Positions 28,421 through 36,471 of a stretch of DNA of 64,000 bases are shown piece after piece; the stretch's first letter is position 1, and each line of letters begins with the position of its first letter. The notes under the pieces were generated by a model. The model was not told the DNA's origin and did not search any database. It saw nothing but the letters and a program-made list of their open reading frames with translations. Where the stretch lies: contig CANRJC010000003.1 of assembly GCA_947630795.1 (NCBI GenBank), positions 1 through 64,000 on the forward strand. Reading direction: 5' to 3'. Made by a program: the position numbers and the translations under genes. This stretch comes from an uncultured Phascolarctobacterium sp. Its GTDB lineage: Bacteria; Bacillota; Negativicutes; Acidaminococcales; Acidaminococcaceae.

Positions 28421-29083
28421 TCAATACTTGCTGTTGTTTTCTTTCGCCCGGCGGCTGCTCAGCTCGGCCAGCAGGTCGGCGGGGCTGATGTTGTGGTAGG
28501 CCAGCAGCACCAAGCAGTGATACCACAGGTCGCTCATCTCGTACACGACTTCGGAGGGGCTGTTGTTTTTGGAAGCGATGATGGTCTCGGCGCTCTCTTC
28601 GCCCACTTTTTTGAGGATCTTGTCTTGGCCCGCACTGAAAAGATATTTCGTATAACTTTTTTCTCCGCCGTGCTGCCGCTTCCACTGAATGACGCTGTAG
28701 AGATCGGCCAGCACCTGAGGCAGGGCCGTCTCTTGCTGAACGGGGAGATTGGGAAGATGATAGAGGTCGTTGAAGAAACAACTGTATGCCCCGGTATGGC
28801 AGGCCACCCCCTTTTGCTCCACTTGCACCAAGAGAGCGTCGGCGTCGCAGTCGTATTTGATGCTCAAAACTTTTTGAGTGTTGCCGCTGGTGGCGCCTTT
28901 GTTCCACAATTCTTGCCGGCTGCGGCTGAAAAACCAAGTGTAGCCGCTCTCCAAAGTTTTTTGCAAAGATTCTTCGTTCATGTAGGCCAGCATCAGCACC
29001 GCCTTGGTCTTTGCGTCTTGAACTACGGCGGGGAGCAAGCCTTTTTCGTCGAATTTCAACTTACTAAGATCGATATCCATCAT
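28421..29083 (-). CDS. hisIE: Phosphoribosyl-AMP cyclohydrolase / phosphoribosyl-ATP pyrophosphatase
   Basis: A 220-residue fusion doing histidine steps 2 and 3. The HisI half (to about residue 115) has [39 protein letters not shown] (metal site) and [12 protein letters not shown]. The HisE half (from about 120) has [25 protein letters not shown] and [13 protein letters not shown]. The ATG overlaps the hisF stop. It is the last gene of the operon. Confidence 0.95.
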
Positions 29084-29838
29084 AATCTCACCTCAATGCC
29101 TCTTTGCCGCAGGTATTCTTTCACCTGACGGATGGTAAATGTTTTGTAGTGAAAAACGGAAGCGGCCAGCACCGCATCGGCGCCGCCTTCCTTCAACACA
29201 TCGTAAAAAGAAGCCAAACTGCCGGCCCCGCCGCTGGCGATGATGGGCACATTGACGGAACTGCTCACGGCCTTGGTGAGAGGGATGTCGTAACCGGCCT
29301 GAGTGCCGTCGCTGTCCATGCTGGTGAGCAAGATCTCGCCGGCGCCCAAGGCCGCGGCTTCTTTGGCCCAGGCTAAAGCGTCGATGCCTGTGGGCTTGCG
29401 GCCTCCCTCTACATAAACTTCCCAGCTGCCGGGGCCGCAGCGTTTGGCATCGATGGCCACCACTATGCATTGGCGGCCGAAGAGACGGGCACCCTCGGCG
29501 ATGAGGCGAGGCTCTCTTACGGCGGCGCTGTTCAAAGAGATCTTATCGGCCCCCGCCCGCAAAGCAGCACGAATATCTTCGATGCTGCTCAAGCCGCCGC
29601 CCACGGTGAGGGGCATGAAAACTTCACCGGCGGTGGCTCTTATCACGTCCAGCATGGCTTGCCGTCCTTCGTGAGTGGCGGTGATGTCCAAAAACACCAG
29701 TTCGTCGGCGCCTTCTTTATCGTAGGCGGCCGCTCTTTCCACCGGGTCGCCGGCGTCCCTCAGGCCCACGAAATTGGTGCCCTTCACTACTCGGCCCGCT
29801 TTTACGTCCAAACAGGGGATGATCCTCTTGGTCAACAT
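29080..29838 (-). CDS. hisF: Imidazole glycerol phosphate synthase, cyclase subunit
   Basis: A 252-residue TIM barrel that joins HisH-derived ammonia to PRFAR. It has [18 protein letters not shown] (catalytic Asp11 region), [55 protein letters not shown] (Asp130 region) and [12 protein letters not shown]. It overlaps hisA by 7 nt and hisIE by 4 nt. Confidence 0.96.
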
Positions 29839-30605
29839 GGGCCTTCACCTTTTTCTTCGGAAATTTTTTCTTCGGAATTTTCACCGGCAGCACACAAAGC
29901 CAAAGCAGCTTTAAGATCGACGGCGCCGCTGTATAAAGCTTTGCCGATGATGCAGCCGGCGATAGAGGGGCCATAGGTCAGCAAAGTTTTGATATCTTCC
30001 AAAGAAGCCACGCCGCCGCTGGCGATGACAGGGAGTTTTGAGGCCCGGGCCACGGCGGCAGTGGCTGCGGCATTGACACCGCTGAGGCGGCCGTCGCGGC
30101 TGATATCGGTGTAGATCAAAGCGGCGACTCCAAAAGCGGCCATTTTTTTCGCAAGTTCTGTAGATGACACATCGCTCACTTTTTCCCAACCGGCGATGGC
30201 CACTCGTCCTGCTTTGGCATCGATGCCCACGGCGATACGGCCGGGGTAAAGACGGCAAGCCTCACGAACTAAAGTCGGGTCTTCTACAGCGGCGCTGCCG
30301 ATGATGAGGCGCCGGGCCCCCAAGGCAAAAAGTTTTTCCATGGCCGCAAGGCTGCGGAGGCCCCCGCCTATCTGTACCGGTATATCTACCTGTTCTAAAA
30401 TGCGGCGCAAGACCGGCAGATTGCGGCTCTCACCGGCCAGAGCTCCGTCCAGATCCACCACGTGGAGAAAAGAAGCTCCCATGCTCTGCCATTTCAAGGC
30501 CACTTCCGCCGGGTCGTCAAAGTAGACCGTTTCCCGATCGAAGCGGCCTTCGGTGAGGCGGACGCAGCGGCCCTTGCGGATATCGACGGCTGGATAAATG
30601 ATCAT
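29832..30605 (-). CDS. hisA: ProFAR isomerase
   Basis: A 257-residue TIM barrel for step 4 of histidine synthesis. It has [18 protein letters not shown] (catalytic Asp), [37 protein letters not shown] and [13 protein letters not shown]. The ATG at 30605 overlaps the hisH stop (ATGA). A GTG 9 nt upstream is in frame but coincides with the SD. Confidence 0.95.
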
Positions 30606-31213
30606 GGCTGCCACTCCTTAAAGGCCCGCAACAAGCTCAGGCCCGTGCTGCTCGATTTTTCCGGATGGAACTGAAAGGCTTGGATGCTGCCTCTTCCCAC
30701 GGCGGCGGTGACGGTGCAGCCGTAGTCGCAGGTGGCGGTGATCAGGCTCTTATCTTCCGGTTCGGCATGAAAACTGTGAACGAAATAAACGTAGCTGTCC
30801 TTCGTTGCAGGTAAAAGAGGGGAGGGAGAAGCCGGCTCCAAGCGGTTCCACCCCATGTGGGGGATCTTTTCTTTTGTGGGCAAGAGACGCACCTGCCCTT
30901 TGAACACGCCGAGGCCCGCAACACCCGGGGCTTCCTCGCTGCTTTCGAAGAGGACCTGCATGCCCAGACAGATGCCGAGGAAGGGAGTGCCCTTGGCAAA
31001 GTGGCTGTGCAGGATGGGGATGAGCCCCTCCTCAGTCAAATTGGCCATGCAATCGCCGAAGGCGCCCACGCCCGGCAGTATTATTTTTTTCGCGGCGGCG
31101 ATGAGAGCCGGGTCGCCGGTGACCACCGGTTCTGCTCCCACCTGAGCCAGAGCCTTGGCTACACTGTGGAGATTCCCCATGCCGTAATCGATGACGATGA
31201 TCTCTTCTCGCAC
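30602..31213 (-). CDS. hisH: Imidazole glycerol phosphate synthase, glutamine amidotransferase subunit
   Basis: A 203-residue class I glutaminase. The nucleophile Cys lies in FLGICLGMQVLFE, the His/Glu pair in FQFHPEKS, and the oxyanion region in ILPGVGAFGDCM. It supplies ammonia to HisF. The start codon shares a base with the hisB stop. Confidence 0.95.
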   Translation of the reverse strand: MREEIIVIDYGMGNLHSVAKALAQVGAEPVVTGDPALIAAAKKIILPGVGAFGDCMANLTEEGLIPILHSHFAKGTPFLGICLGMQVLFESSEEAPGVAGLGVFKGQVRLLPTKEKIPHMGWNRLEPASPSPLLPATKDSYVYFVHSFHAEPEDKSLITATCDYGCTVTAAVGRGSIQAFQFHPEKSSSTGLSLLRAFKEWQP

Positions 31214-31818
31214 TAGAGGGCTCCTTTGCTGCTCATGACGCCCTGCACTCGAGGGTCGACGGCCGTTGCTTCGGCCAAGGCCCGAGCGAAAGCTTTGAAG
31301 ATGGCTTCGATGCTGTGGTGAGTGTTGCTGCCGCCGAGCAAACGGATGTGGAGAGTGAGGCCCGCCTCTGTGGCCAAGGCTCGGAAAAATTCTTCCGTCA
31401 TCTCCGCATCGTAAATGCCCAATTGCACTTTGGGTATGTCTGCCTGAAAGACGAGGTAGGGGCGGCCGGAAAGATCCAGCGCCACTTGGGCCAAAGCTTC
31501 ATCCATGGGCAGGAGACAGGAGCCGTAGCGATGCAGGCCGATCTTGTCGCCTATTGCCTGCTTCAGAGCCCGGCCCAGCACAAGACCGCAGTCTTCTACG
31601 GTGTGATGACTGTCTACGTCTAAGTCGCCCACGGCGTTAAGGGTGAGATCGCAGAAACTGTGCTTGGCCAACAGGGTCAGCATGTGATCGAAAAAGCCGA
31701 TGCCGGTGTTGATGTCGGCCAGGCCTTCCCCATCCAAACGCAATTCGCAGGTGACGCCGGTCTCGGCTGTTTGTCTTTGTACGGCGGCACAACGAGGTCG
31801 CTCATCGGTAACGATCAT
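31213..31818 (-). CDS. hisB: Imidazoleglycerol-phosphate dehydratase
   Basis: A 201-residue monofunctional Mn-dependent dehydratase. It has GIGFFDHMLTLLAKHSFCDL, DVDSHHTVEDCGLVLG and LLGGSNTHHSIEAIFKAFAR with the His-rich metal sites. There is no N-terminal phosphatase domain, so it does not supply the histidinol-phosphate phosphatase step. Coupled to hisC and hisH. Confidence 0.95.
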   Translation of the reverse strand: MIVTDERPRCAAVQRQTAETGVTCELRLDGEGLADINTGIGFFDHMLTLLAKHSFCDLTLNAVGDLDVDSHHTVEDCGLVLGRALKQAIGDKIGLHRYGSCLLPMDEALAQVALDLSGRPYLVFQADIPKVQLGIYDAEMTEEFFRALATEAGLTLHIRLLGGSNTHHSIEAIFKAFARALAEATAVDPRVQGVMSSKGAL

Positions 31819-33020
31819 GACAATACCTCCTCACAAAGGTCGGTCAAATGCCGTAAGATATTTTCGTTTTCTTCCGGCAGGCCCACGCTGATGCGAATAG
31901 CGCCGTTCAAAGCAGGGTGATCGCTATAATCGCGCACCAACACGCCGTGCTCTAAAAAATATTTATAGAGCAATTTGCCTGCCGCAGCTTCCGGCCTATT
32001 GACGGCCTGCAGACGATCATAACGGCGGCCGTAGATGCGGGCAAAAGCCGCAACTTGCTGGCCTTTTGGGCAAAAAGTCACGAAGTTGGCAGAAGAAGGC
32101 CACACTTTAAAGCCCAAAGCGGCGATCTTTTCTGCCATTTTGTCTCTTTCGGCTTTGATCTGCGCCACCCGGGGACGATAAAGTTCTTTGTGCTGATAAA
32201 CGGTCAAGGCCACGGAAAGAGTGAAGGCGTTGACGTGATAGGGGAGCAGTGCCTTGCTCAGTCCCCTTATGAGGCCCACGCTGCCCAGGGCATAACCGCA
32301 GCGCAGCCCGGCCAGACCGTAAGCCTTGGAGAAAGTGCGGAACACCATCAAGTTGCTGTATTTGTGAAGGATGCTGAGACAGGAGCCGGCCACCTGCCAC
32401 AATTTTTCCAGCGGGCGGTGATCCTGAGGGTCTACTTCGCTGCTTGAGGCGAATTCCATGTAAGCTTCGTCGGCGATGACGGGGCAGGTCACATTGGCGA
32501 CGATCTTCTCCATCACAGCCAAGCTGTTATAGTTGCCGGTAGGATTGTTGGGATTGCACAAGATCAGCAAAGCCGGCTCTTCTTTGCGGCAAAAAGCTAT
32601 CACTTGCTCTGCGTCGAGATAACCTTCGGGGGTGAGAGCAAAGGGAGCGGGCTGACTGTCGCTGAGGGCGGCATATTCTCCGTACATGGAGAAGGAGGGA
32701 TAGGGGAAGGCCAGTTTTTTGCCCGGCCCCCCGAAAGCATAGCAGGCTCTTTCCAACAGTTCGCTGCTGCCGTTGCCGATGACGACACAGTTGGGGGCCA
32801 CACCGAGATCTGCGGCGATGACCTCGCTCAAAGTTTCTGCTTTGAGGGGAGGATAACGATTAAAGGGAAAAGCGGGAATGGCTTCGGTCACTGCAGCGAC
32901 CACCGCTTCCGGCAGAGGATAGTTGCTCTCGTTGGCGTTGACGATGACGGAAGCGGGAACATGCTCCACCTGATAGTCTTCCAAAGCAGCCAGATTGCGG
33001 CGCAGTTTTATTTCTTCCAT
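31815..33020 (-). CDS. hisC: Histidinol-phosphate aminotransferase
   Basis: A 401-residue PLP class I/II aminotransferase, somewhat longer than the usual 350-370. It has NANESNYPLPEAV, NRYPP, GNGSSELLERACYAF, CNPNNPTGNYNSL, ADEAYMEFA and FRTFSKAYGLAGLRCGYALG with the PLP Lys. The end of hisD overlaps its start by 13 nt. Confidence 0.92.
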   Translation of the reverse strand: MEEIKLRRNLAALEDYQVEHVPASVIVNANESNYPLPEAVVAAVTEAIPAFPFNRYPPLKAETLSEVIAADLGVAPNCVVIGNGSSELLERACYAFGGPGKKLAFPYPSFSMYGEYAALSDSQPAPFALTPEGYLDAEQVIAFCRKEEPALLILCNPNNPTGNYNSLAVMEKIVANVTCPVIADEAYMEFASSSEVDPQDHRPLEKLWQVAGSCLSILHKYSNLMVFRTFSKAYGLAGLRCGYALGSVGLIRGLSKALLPYHVNAFTLSVALTVYQHKELYRPRVAQIKAERDKMAEKIAALGFKVWPSSANFVTFCPKGQQVAAFARIYGRRYDRLQAVNRPEAAAGKLLYKYFLEHGVLVRDYSDHPALNGAIRISVGLPEENENILRHLTDLCEEVLS

Positions 33021-34369
33021 AATTTATCTCCTTGCAGCCGCTGCCTGATGGCGGCGGCGTGGGCTCCCAGCCCCTCGGCTTCGGCCAGCGTGATGATGTC
33101 TTTTGCCGCTTCGGCCAAAGCCGGGGCGGTATAAGAGATGATGCTGGTCTTTTTCATAAAAGTCTCCACGTTCAGCACCGAATAAAATTTGGCGGTGCCG
33201 CCGGTGGGAAGGACATGATTGGGGCCGGCATAGTAATCGCCTAAGGGTTCGGGGGAATAGCGGCCCAGAAAAACTGCTCCGGCATTGCGGATATAGGGGA
33301 GGAGGGCGAAGGGATCGGCCGTCATGAGCTCTAAATGTTCGGGAGCCGAGAGGTTGGCCAGTTCCAGCATGGCCTTTTGATCGGCAGCCAAAATGATCTT
33401 GCCCTGCCCTTCGATGGCAGTGTCGGCTATAGCTCGGCGGGGAAGGCGGGCCAGTTGCTCTTCGATCTCGGTCGCCACGGCGGCGGCGATCTTGGCACTA
33501 TCGGTGATGAGGATAGCGCTGGCCAGAGGATCGTGCTCCGCCTGGCTCAACAGATCCGCCGCCAAATATGCGGGTTCGGCGCTGTCGTCGGCGAGGATGA
33601 GGATCTCGCTGGGGCCGGCCAGCATATCGATGTCGACGCTGCCGTAAACTGCTTTCTTGGCCAAAGTTACGAAAATGTTGCCGGGGCCGCTGATCTTTTC
33701 CACCTTGGGCACCGTTTCGGTGCCGTAGGCCAAAGCTGCGACGGCCTGAGCGCCGCCCATCTTGTAAATTTCCTTTAGCCCCAGCAGTTTGGCGGTGACC
33801 AAAACGTAGGGATTGATCTTCCCGTTGTTGCCGGGGGGCACGGCCATGGCGATGCGGGGCACTCCGGCCACCTGTGCCGGGCAGGCGTTCATGATGACGC
33901 TGGAAGGATAGGCGGCAGTGCCGCCGGGCACGTAGATGCCCACTGAATCGACCGGCGTCACTTTTTGTCCCAAAAGAGAGCCGTGGGGACGGGCGGTCAG
34001 CCACGTCTTCGGCAGTTGCTCTTCATGAAAGGCCCTCACGTTGGCGATGGCCCGTTTTAAAGCGGCCACTACTTCCGGTCTTGCCACAGCCTCCGCCTCG
34101 GCGAATTCTTCGGGGCCTACTCTGATATTGGCGGGTGTAAGATCGGCTTTATCGATGAGTTTGCTGTAACGAAAGAGAGCGGCGTCTCCTTCTTTGCGGA
34201 TGGCGGTCACTATTTGTTCTACGACTTGGGCGGCGCTCAAGGGAGCGCCGAACATGGCGGTGACTCCTTCCTGCACCTTGGGGCTGAGCTCCCACTGATC
34301 GAAGGCAGGCTTCGCCATCAAAGAAATTTTTTCTTTCGCCGTCATGGTCCTACTATCTATTATCTTCAT
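33008..34369 (-). CDS. hisD: Histidinol dehydrogenase
   Basis: A 453-residue zinc-dependent dehydrogenase catalysing the last two oxidations of histidine synthesis. It has TPVDSVGIYVPGGTAAYPSSV, GPGNIFVTLAKKAVYG, DMLAGPSEILILADDS, LLSQAEHDPLASA, NLSAPEHLELM and GPNHVLPTGGTAKF. The N-terminus has about 20 extra residues over the usual start because the ATG lies inside the hisZG end (17-nt overlap). An internal start (MTAKEK or MAKPAF) is possible. Confidence 0.94.
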   Translation of the reverse strand: MKIIDSRTMTAKEKISLMAKPAFDQWELSPKVQEGVTAMFGAPLSAAQVVEQIVTAIRKEGDAALFRYSKLIDKADLTPANIRVGPEEFAEAEAVARPEVVAALKRAIANVRAFHEEQLPKTWLTARPHGSLLGQKVTPVDSVGIYVPGGTAAYPSSVIMNACPAQVAGVPRIAMAVPPGNNGKINPYVLVTAKLLGLKEIYKMGGAQAVAALAYGTETVPKVEKISGPGNIFVTLAKKAVYGSVDIDMLAGPSEILILADDSAEPAYLAADLLSQAEHDPLASAILITDSAKIAAAVATEIEEQLARLPRRAIADTAIEGQGKIILAADQKAMLELANLSAPEHLELMTADPFALLPYIRNAGAVFLGRYSPEPLGDYYAGPNHVLPTGGTAKFYSVLNVETFMKKTSIISYTAPALAEAAKDIITLAEAEGLGAHAAAIRQRLQGDKLWKK

Positions 34370-36017
34370 CTTTTGCTTTTTCCTCCTCCAAGATGGCCCG
34401 TAGGTCCTGCACCAAGCTCAGCAGCCGCCGAAATTTCAGCCGCAGGCTGGCTCGATTGGCGATGAGCCGGGCGGTGGCGGTGAAGATGGTGGCCACTTCA
34501 GTCAGTTTATTTTCCCGCAGAGTGCGGCCCGACTCGGCTATATCTACGATCATCTCGCTGAGACCGATGAGGGGGCCCAGCTCGATGCTGCCGTTAAGAT
34601 CCACTGTCTCCGCCTGTATGCCTATTTGATTGAAGAAGCGGCGGGCGCAATGAGGATATTTGGTGGCGGCCCTAAGGTGAGCGTAGTCGGTGAGGCGGGG
34701 CCGCACCTGTCCTTCCGGCACCGCCAGCATCAAACGGCAGCGGCCGAAGCCCAAGTCCAAAAGTTCCACTACATCTTTTTCTTGTTCCAGCAGCACGTCT
34801 TTGCCGATGATGCCCAAGTCGGCGGCACCGTATTCCACATAGGTGGGCACATCTATGGTCTTGGCGATGATGAAGCGCACCTTGCTCGTAGGATTAGTGA
34901 TGACCAATTTGCGGGAATCGTCGGAAAGATTTTCGCCGCTGCAGCCGGCCTTGGCTAAAAGAGCCGCTGCTTGATGAAAAAGTTTTCCCTTGGGCAGGGC
35001 GATGGTCAAATATTCTTCGGCTCTGTTCACGGCGGCCTTGCCGCTGCGTTCTAAGGCCAGCATGATGCGGTCGACGCCCAGAGCAAAACCGGTGGCCGGG
35101 CAGTCGCTGCCGAAAGAGCGCATCATCGTGTCGTAACGGCCGCCGCCGGCGATGGTGTAGCCCATTTCCGGCAAATAGATCTCAAAGAGCATGCCCGTGT
35201 AATAATCAAAAGAGCGGTAAAGGCCCAGGTCCAATTCCACATGGCCGGCGGCCTCGGGGCAGAGCGTCTCCAAGTGAGCCATGATGGCTTTCAGATCGGC
35301 CAGAGCCTGCAGGCAGAGAGGTTCCGTCAAAGTTTGACCGAGCGCTTCGGCCAAGCGAGGGCCTCCCTTCAAAAAGAGAAGATCGGCCAAAAGCTGCCGT
35401 ACCTCATTAGGAGCAGTCTCTAAACTGTCCGCCAATTCCTGCAGACCTACCGCATCTCTTCTGCGCAGGCAGTCTTTCAAAACAGCCGTTTGCTCCGAAG
35501 TGAGAGCGCAGGCTGCGGCGATGCCGGTGATGAATTGCACCTGACCGAGGCTGATGGTGAATTTAAAAAGACCGGCAGCCAAAAGAGCTTCGATGGCCAG
35601 CCCTATCACTTCGGCGTCGGCGGCGGGGCCCGAAGCCCCCAACAATTCCAAGCCCGCCTGTTCGAATTCGCACTGTCGGCCTTCTTGGATCTCTTCGTAA
35701 CGATAAAGATTGGCCAAATAGCAGAGCCGTTTTATCGCCGGGCCGTCCTGCAAACGAGTGGAGGCCAAACGGGCGATGGCCCCGGTCATATCGTTGCGTA
35801 AAACGAGAAGATTGTTGCGCCGATCGAAGAGGCGGAAGTCTCTTTTGTCGCCGGGGCCGCCGTAGGTGTCGGCATATTCGAAGACGGGAGTGCGCACCTG
35901 ACTGTAGCCGGCTTTTTCGAAAACGGCGAGGATGGAATTTTCTACCTGCCGCCGCTGCCGCATCTCTTCCGGCAAAATGTCTTTAGTGCCGTAGGGCACC
36001 CGAAAGACTTTCTTCAT
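34353..36017 (-). CDS. hisZG: HisZ-HisG fusion: ATP phosphoribosyltransferase regulatory plus catalytic subunit
   Basis: One uninterrupted 554-residue frame. Residues 1 to about 325 are HisZ, a class II tRNA-synthetase-like regulatory subunit, with VPYGTKDILPEE, LRNDMTGAIARL, LANLYRYEEIQEGR, YYTGMLFEIY and AGGGRYDTMM. From about 335 to the end is short-form HisG, with LTIALPKGKLF, the DDSRKLV segment, YVEYGAADLGIIGKDVL and the PRPP loop DIAESGRTLRE. The linker is only about ten residues. Short HisG normally needs HisZ as a separate protein in an octamer. The 1:1 fusion catalyses and feedback-controls the first step of histidine synthesis. Coupled to yerC by ATGA. Confidence 0.93.
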   Translation of the reverse strand: MKKVFRVPYGTKDILPEEMRQRRQVENSILAVFEKAGYSQVRTPVFEYADTYGGPGDKRDFRLFDRRNNLLVLRNDMTGAIARLASTRLQDGPAIKRLCYLANLYRYEEIQEGRQCEFEQAGLELLGASGPAADAEVIGLAIEALLAAGLFKFTISLGQVQFITGIAAACALTSEQTAVLKDCLRRRDAVGLQELADSLETAPNEVRQLLADLLFLKGGPRLAEALGQTLTEPLCLQALADLKAIMAHLETLCPEAAGHVELDLGLYRSFDYYTGMLFEIYLPEMGYTIAGGGRYDTMMRSFGSDCPATGFALGVDRIMLALERSGKAAVNRAEEYLTIALPKGKLFHQAAALLAKAGCSGENLSDDSRKLVITNPTSKVRFIIAKTIDVPTYVEYGAADLGIIGKDVLLEQEKDVVELLDLGFGRCRLMLAVPEGQVRPRLTDYAHLRAATKYPHCARRFFNQIGIQAETVDLNGSIELGPLIGLSEMIVDIAESGRTLRENKLTEVATIFTATARLIANRASLRLKFRRLLSLVQDLRAILEEEKAKDEDNR

Positions 36018-36307
36018 TCTTTCCTCCTGATGCCGGGCATCACCAGTTTATAGCCGTCGGCTCCGTACACCAGACTGCGCTTTACCCGGGAGATGGTGGC
36101 GGTGCTGGCCCCGGTGGCGGCTACGATGTCTTCGTAAATGAGGCCGGCATCCAGCATGCGGGCCACTTCCAGCCGTTGGGCCATGGCTTTCAGTTCGCTG
36201 ATGGTGCAGACATCGGCAAAGAAACGGTAGCAGTCCTCGCGACTCTTTAAGCTGAGAATGGCGTTAAAAAGTTGATCGCAGAGAGGATCGTGTAATTTAT
36301 CGACCAT
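36014..36307 (-). CDS. yerC: YerC/YecD-family TrpR-like transcriptional regulator
   Basis: A 97-residue protein related to the Trp repressor. It has LFNAILSLKSREDCYRFF, the TCTISELKAMAQRLEVARML-type region and the helix-turn-helix IVAATGASTATISRVKRSL. It heads the his operon and is coupled to hisZG, so it is the likely local repressor, possibly sensing histidine. A good SD (AAGGAG) precedes the ATG. An 18-bp palindrome between its -35 and -10 is the obvious operator candidate. Confidence 0.9.
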   Translation of the reverse strand: MVDKLHDPLCDQLFNAILSLKSREDCYRFFADVCTISELKAMAQRLEVARMLDAGLIYEDIVAATGASTATISRVKRSLVYGADGYKLVMPGIRRKE

Positions 36308-36340
36308 GATACTTCTCCTTACCCAAAACCTATGCTACCC

Positions 36341-36369
36341 ACTTTAACACTTTAGTTTAATAAAGTCAA
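36341..36369 (-). promoter_or_regulatory. his operon promoter with palindromic operator
   Basis: Minus-strand TTGACT (36364-36369), 17-bp spacer, TAAAGT (36341-36346). The spacer region holds ACTTTA-N6-TAAAGT (36349-36366), and a further ACTTTA at 36341-36346 forms the -10. Binding there would block polymerase directly. Confidence 0.7.
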
Positions 36370-36426
36370 GCTCTTTTTGCCGTCCCTGCGAGAAGAGGTC
36401 TTTTATTTCTCAAAGGCATAAGAAAA

Positions 36427-36450
36427 AGCTGTCACCCGCAGGTGACAGCT
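36427..36450 (-). terminator. Intrinsic terminator after the tautomerase gene
   Basis: A perfect 10-bp repeat, AGCTGTCACC/GGTGACAGCT with a 4-nt loop, followed on the minus strand by TTTTTCTT. Confidence 0.85.
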
Positions 36451-36471
36451 CAAAATTTTAAAGGTAGGCGT

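Follow-up and report, generated by a model that had tools for sequence, protein, structure and literature searches.

The hisR-his operon and its promoter

The window, that is the whole stretch of 64,000 nucleotides of Phascolarctobacterium sp. DNA that was analysed, carries on its minus strand a histidine biosynthesis operon in the order hisR(yerC)-hisZG-D-C-B-H-A-F-IE, composed of the following genes:

36014 to 36307, minus strand: hisR (yerC), TrpR-family repressor of 97 aa (TIGR02531, 134 bits for a cut-off of 42 bits; PF01371, 98 bits)
34353 to 36017, minus strand: hisZ-hisG fusion, regulatory and catalytic parts of ATP phosphoribosyltransferase in a single frame (TIGR00443 and TIGR00070, above cut-off)
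33008 to 34369, minus strand: hisD (TIGR00069)
31815 to 33020, minus strand: hisC (top match TIGR01141, slightly below cut-off)
31213 to 31818, minus strand: hisB (NF002111, above cut-off)
30602 to 31213, minus strand: hisH (TIGR01855)
29832 to 30614, minus strand: hisA (TIGR00007)
29080 to 29838, minus strand: hisF (TIGR00735)
28421 to 29083, minus strand: hisIE (NF002747)

The first product of the operon is indeed the YerC/TrpR-like protein named by the initial annotation, and relatives of HisR with known structure include 3frw, 3kor and 3g1c. The promoter had been described as driving yerC-his; hisR overlaps hisZG by ATGA, and the other his genes follow. The hisZ-hisG fusion forms one frame of 554 aa, and the genus's second species has it too. 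It may also exist in two species from another genus, whose HisZ frame (about 500 aa) reaches the end of the locus, whereas among the relatives checked most encode HisZ in a frame of its own, about 400 aa long.

Upstream of the hisR coding sequence, the following elements were recognized:

36315 to 36319, minus strand: ribosome-binding site AGGAG of hisR, read from the sequence
36341 to 36346, minus strand: -10 hexamer TAAAGT, candidate third half-site 8 bp from the downstream half of the dyad, a position conserved in the family
36349 to 36366, no strand: predicted core HisR operator dyad ACTTTA-GTTTAA-TAAAGT, a perfect inverted repeat matching the published HisR consensus
36364 to 36369, minus strand: -35 hexamer TTGACT from the promoter scan, its final three bases common to the dyad
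36426 to 36451, minus strand: terminator-like hairpin on the upstream side of the promoter, with an 11-pair stem followed by a T run

The promoter found by the scan, TTGACT-N17-TAAAGT (36369..36341, minus strand), has 9 of the 12 consensus bases, and the plus strand from 36340 reads CACTTTAACACTTTAGTTTAATAAAGTCAAG. The dyad had been described as lying between the -35 and the -10: it does fill the spacer up to 2 bp from the -10, but it also extends into the -35, the three bases 36364-36366 belonging both to this hexamer and to the upstream half of the dyad. That the -10 is itself another ACTTTA on the plus strand (TAAAGT on the minus strand) was correctly noted. The hairpin at 36426-36451 insulates the hisR-his operon from the preceding gene. 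Control of the operon at the RNA level, by a T-box or a his leader, was rejected since an Rfam search of the window returned zero matches, hence none to a T-box, a his leader or a riboswitch family.

The palindrome as a probable HisR operator

The palindrome ACTTTA-N6-TAAAGT reported in the his promoter is real: it is the sole exact copy in the 1.91-Mb genome and, when any spacer of 4 to 8 nt is allowed, still the single ACTTTA/TAAAGT dyad of the window. Could it have arisen by chance in an AT-rich promoter? Promoter spacers are AT-rich, but none of 100 dinucleotide shuffles contained an ACTTTA-N4-8-TAAAGT dyad, and these shuffles, the uniqueness of the site in the genome and the conservation of the operator geometry across genera led to the rejection of this explanation, which deserves practically no credence. 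Elsewhere in the 1.91-Mb genome there are two dyads with one mismatch: the first precedes an operon for an amino-acid ABC transporter, and the second falls within a coding frame and was attributed to chance.

The operator consensus of HisR (the same protein as YerC) in Firmicutes has been published as cacTTTAnnnnnnTAAAgtg, one 20-bp palindrome (Ashniev et al. 2022, PMC9413887), and the window dyad agrees with it at 13 of the 14 specified positions. According to the main text of the same study, most Selenomonadales and Acidaminococcales have hisR in front of their his operons, and autoregulation was inferred; HisR sites precede both hisR and the his genes of Acidaminococcales, and Ruminococcus gnavus HisR needs histidine to bind DNA in vitro (PMC9413887). 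The arrangement in this genome resembles the Firmicutes HisR operators, as this text presents them, in its regulator family, its dyad consensus and the bacterial orders concerned, and resembles the HisR regulon in its targets, namely the his operon, hisR and a putative hisXYZ*.

Judged from its sequence, the window dyad is very probably the operator of HisR and a member of its regulon. Binding of the dyad by a different regulator is highly improbable, as the motif fits the HisR consensus and accompanies hisR, his and transporter genes. The autorepression of histidine synthesis by YerC, predicted by the initial annotation, gains support from the consensus match and from the autoregulated hisR-his operons that the main text of PMC9413887 describes for Acidaminococcales; the proposed comparison of upstream regions of orthologous yerC-his operons likewise showed that the ACTTTA dyad is conserved in relatives. 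This annotation had nevertheless missed the prior publication of the regulator and its motif: regulator, motif and kind of operator are already known, and the proposed 8-bp lattice considered below is a modest addition to them.

Half-sites repeated at an 8-bp pitch

Unlike the single 20-bp palindrome given in the main text of PMC9413887, the window operator has an extra half-site at an 8-bp pitch. The initial annotation had also overlooked that the ACTTTA of the -10 would add a third half-site, whose distance of exactly 8 bp is conserved. The main text of PMC9413887 makes no mention of extra half-sites at this pitch, nor of any half-site that would at the same time act as -10 or -35, and a search of the accessible literature for 8-bp tandem HisR sites found no paper describing them.

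When half-site offsets were anchored on the best dyad, flanking bases being left out of the choice of anchor, the best right-hand offset was +8 in all four groups of promoters considered. In 48 Acidaminococcaceae hisR promoters, the mean match at +8 was 4.38 of 5 bases, versus 1.67 at other offsets; it reached 3.61 in 31 Selenomonadales promoters (background 1.69), 2.61 in 18 other Bacillota promoters (background 1.44) and 3.10 in 20 promoters drawn phylum-wide (background 1.60). Of the Acidaminococcaceae hisR promoters having the dyad, 94% carry the +8 half-site. The extra half-site weakens beyond Negativicutes, where 39-50% of promoters match it at no fewer than 4 of 5 bases. More distant Acidaminococcaceae species were added in order to remove selection by HisR similarity: in this subset of 19, +16 scored marginally above +8 (4.00 vs 3.79), and several of the added promoters have four or five half-sites.

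The same pitch appears without anchoring: two [TG]AAAG motifs spaced 8 bp apart are present in the hisR upstream regions of Acidaminococcaceae (22 of 29) and of other Negativicutes (26 of 37), for a shuffle expectation of 0.2, although promoters of related species are non-independent samples and shuffles ignore this kinship. Pairs 16 bp apart were found in 11 of the same 37 regions. Across 59 genomes of the family, the exact three-half-site pattern was matched 28 times, versus 5 for a reversed control; 23 matches lie upstream of hisR, 3 upstream of a hisZ located elsewhere (L155, L156 and L158), and 2 are unrelated. Array matches at L146 and L157, away from his genes, were dismissed as chance occurrences.

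A mirrored version of the array is found in the same genome upstream of the amino-acid ABC transporter operon mentioned above, which is complete (binding protein, permease and ATPase). The site there, which holds the one-mismatch dyad, reads CACTTTACAAATTTACTACGCTAAAGTATAAT, and the extra half-site lies 8 bp away on the other side of the dyad, where it overlaps a TTTACA -35; this mirrored three-half-site arrangement is present in 29/29 scorable promoters of the transporter in the family. The family models matched by the operon name amino-acid transporters generally, and for this reason we only infer that it encodes a HisXYZ*-like transporter with histidine as substrate.

Is the third half-site more than a -10? 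It coincides with the -10 in the window and in most of the Acidaminococcaceae, at the ideal spacing of 17 bp in the window, and one may consider that the canonical 20-bp palindrome is the only operator, the third ACTTTA being a weak -10 that resembles a half-site by chance. The published motif is consistent with this, as is the binding of R. gnavus HisR to a 30-bp DNA that contains a single 20-bp site, as described in the main text of PMC9413887. However, among the 100 listed TTGAC-N18-TANNNT matches in the genome, TAAAGT serves as -10 just once, in the his promoter itself, compared with 27 for TATAAT and 20 for TACAAT. The Selenomonadales arrays keep the 8-bp pitch, with as many as four repeats, and their first TAAAG is mostly found 18-29 bp downstream from where a TATAAT-like -10 starts; since the array there is downstream of a separate TATAAT, the third half-site is not merely a -10. 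The transporter promoters, with their extra half-site on the opposite flank, and the existence of +16 repeats also speak against a chance resemblance, which is considered unlikely.

Proposed tandem HisR binding and feedback control

The reading preferred here, to which a probability of roughly 0.8 is assigned as a whole, is a switch operated by histidine-bound HisR through the dyad and the -10 half-site, with occupancy by several dimers. When histidine, the co-repressor, is plentiful, HisR would bind the dyad, covering half of the -35 and nearly the whole spacer, and a further dimer, shifted by 8 bp, would take the third half-site, that is the -10 hexamer. Together, the dimers would exclude RNA polymerase, so that hisR and histidine synthesis would be repressed in this Phascolarctobacterium sp.; when histidine drops, HisR would depart and the operon would be expressed. 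The array at the transporter promoter would extend this feedback repression to histidine uptake. Occupancy by more than one HisR dimer is suggested by the spacing, but the partner half-site of the second dimer, located between the dyad halves, is a poor match, which counts against two-dimer binding.

TrpR dimers bound in tandem are shifted by 8 bp, and work by Kumamoto in 1987 reportedly found multiple sites for TrpR in the operators of aroH and trp. The system proposed here would resemble the Escherichia coli TrpR operators (trp, aroH and trpR) in its TrpR-family repressor, its amino-acid co-repressor and its tandem arrangement, judged for HisR from spacing alone, whereas half-site sequence and co-repressor differ. 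Dimers of TrpR sit in tandem on synthetic operators, and TrpR operators can overlap other sites (PMC8745587).

More broadly, it seems fairly probable that HisR operators in Bacillota are often lattices of 3-5 half-sites at an 8-bp pitch, loading several dimers in tandem, and that in Acidaminococcaceae these are merged with the core promoter, one hexamer serving as both -10 and half-site (hisR-his) and another as both -35 and half-site (transporter). The present comparison lends support to feedback repression of histidine synthesis by HisR in an Acidaminococcaceae genus. If the lattice is real, the published motif of two half-sites under-describes HisR operators, the same bases would set both promoter strength and repressor affinity, and HisR and TrpR would share tandem-dimer binding despite their different co-repressors and half-sites.

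Operators also vary among relatives. The separate hisZ operon of one genus carries a long near-perfect palindrome, TACTTTATCACTTTACTT-TAAAC-AAGTAAAGTGATAAAGTA (L155, 1468-1520; L158, ~1493-1530), with half-sites spaced 8 bp on both arms. At five loci of one genus of the family (genomes G001-G009), HisR is strongly diverged (45-52% identity); the dyad is degenerate in several of its species, and right-hand half-sites at the 8-bp pitch, for example TAAAGTATTAAATCAGTAAAG, are kept. Finally, the hisR upstream region at two Veillonella loci has the variant ACTTTTTCACTTTTTTGTGTGAAAGT, in which the half-sites are ACTTTT/GAAAGT and the 8-bp repeat recurs.
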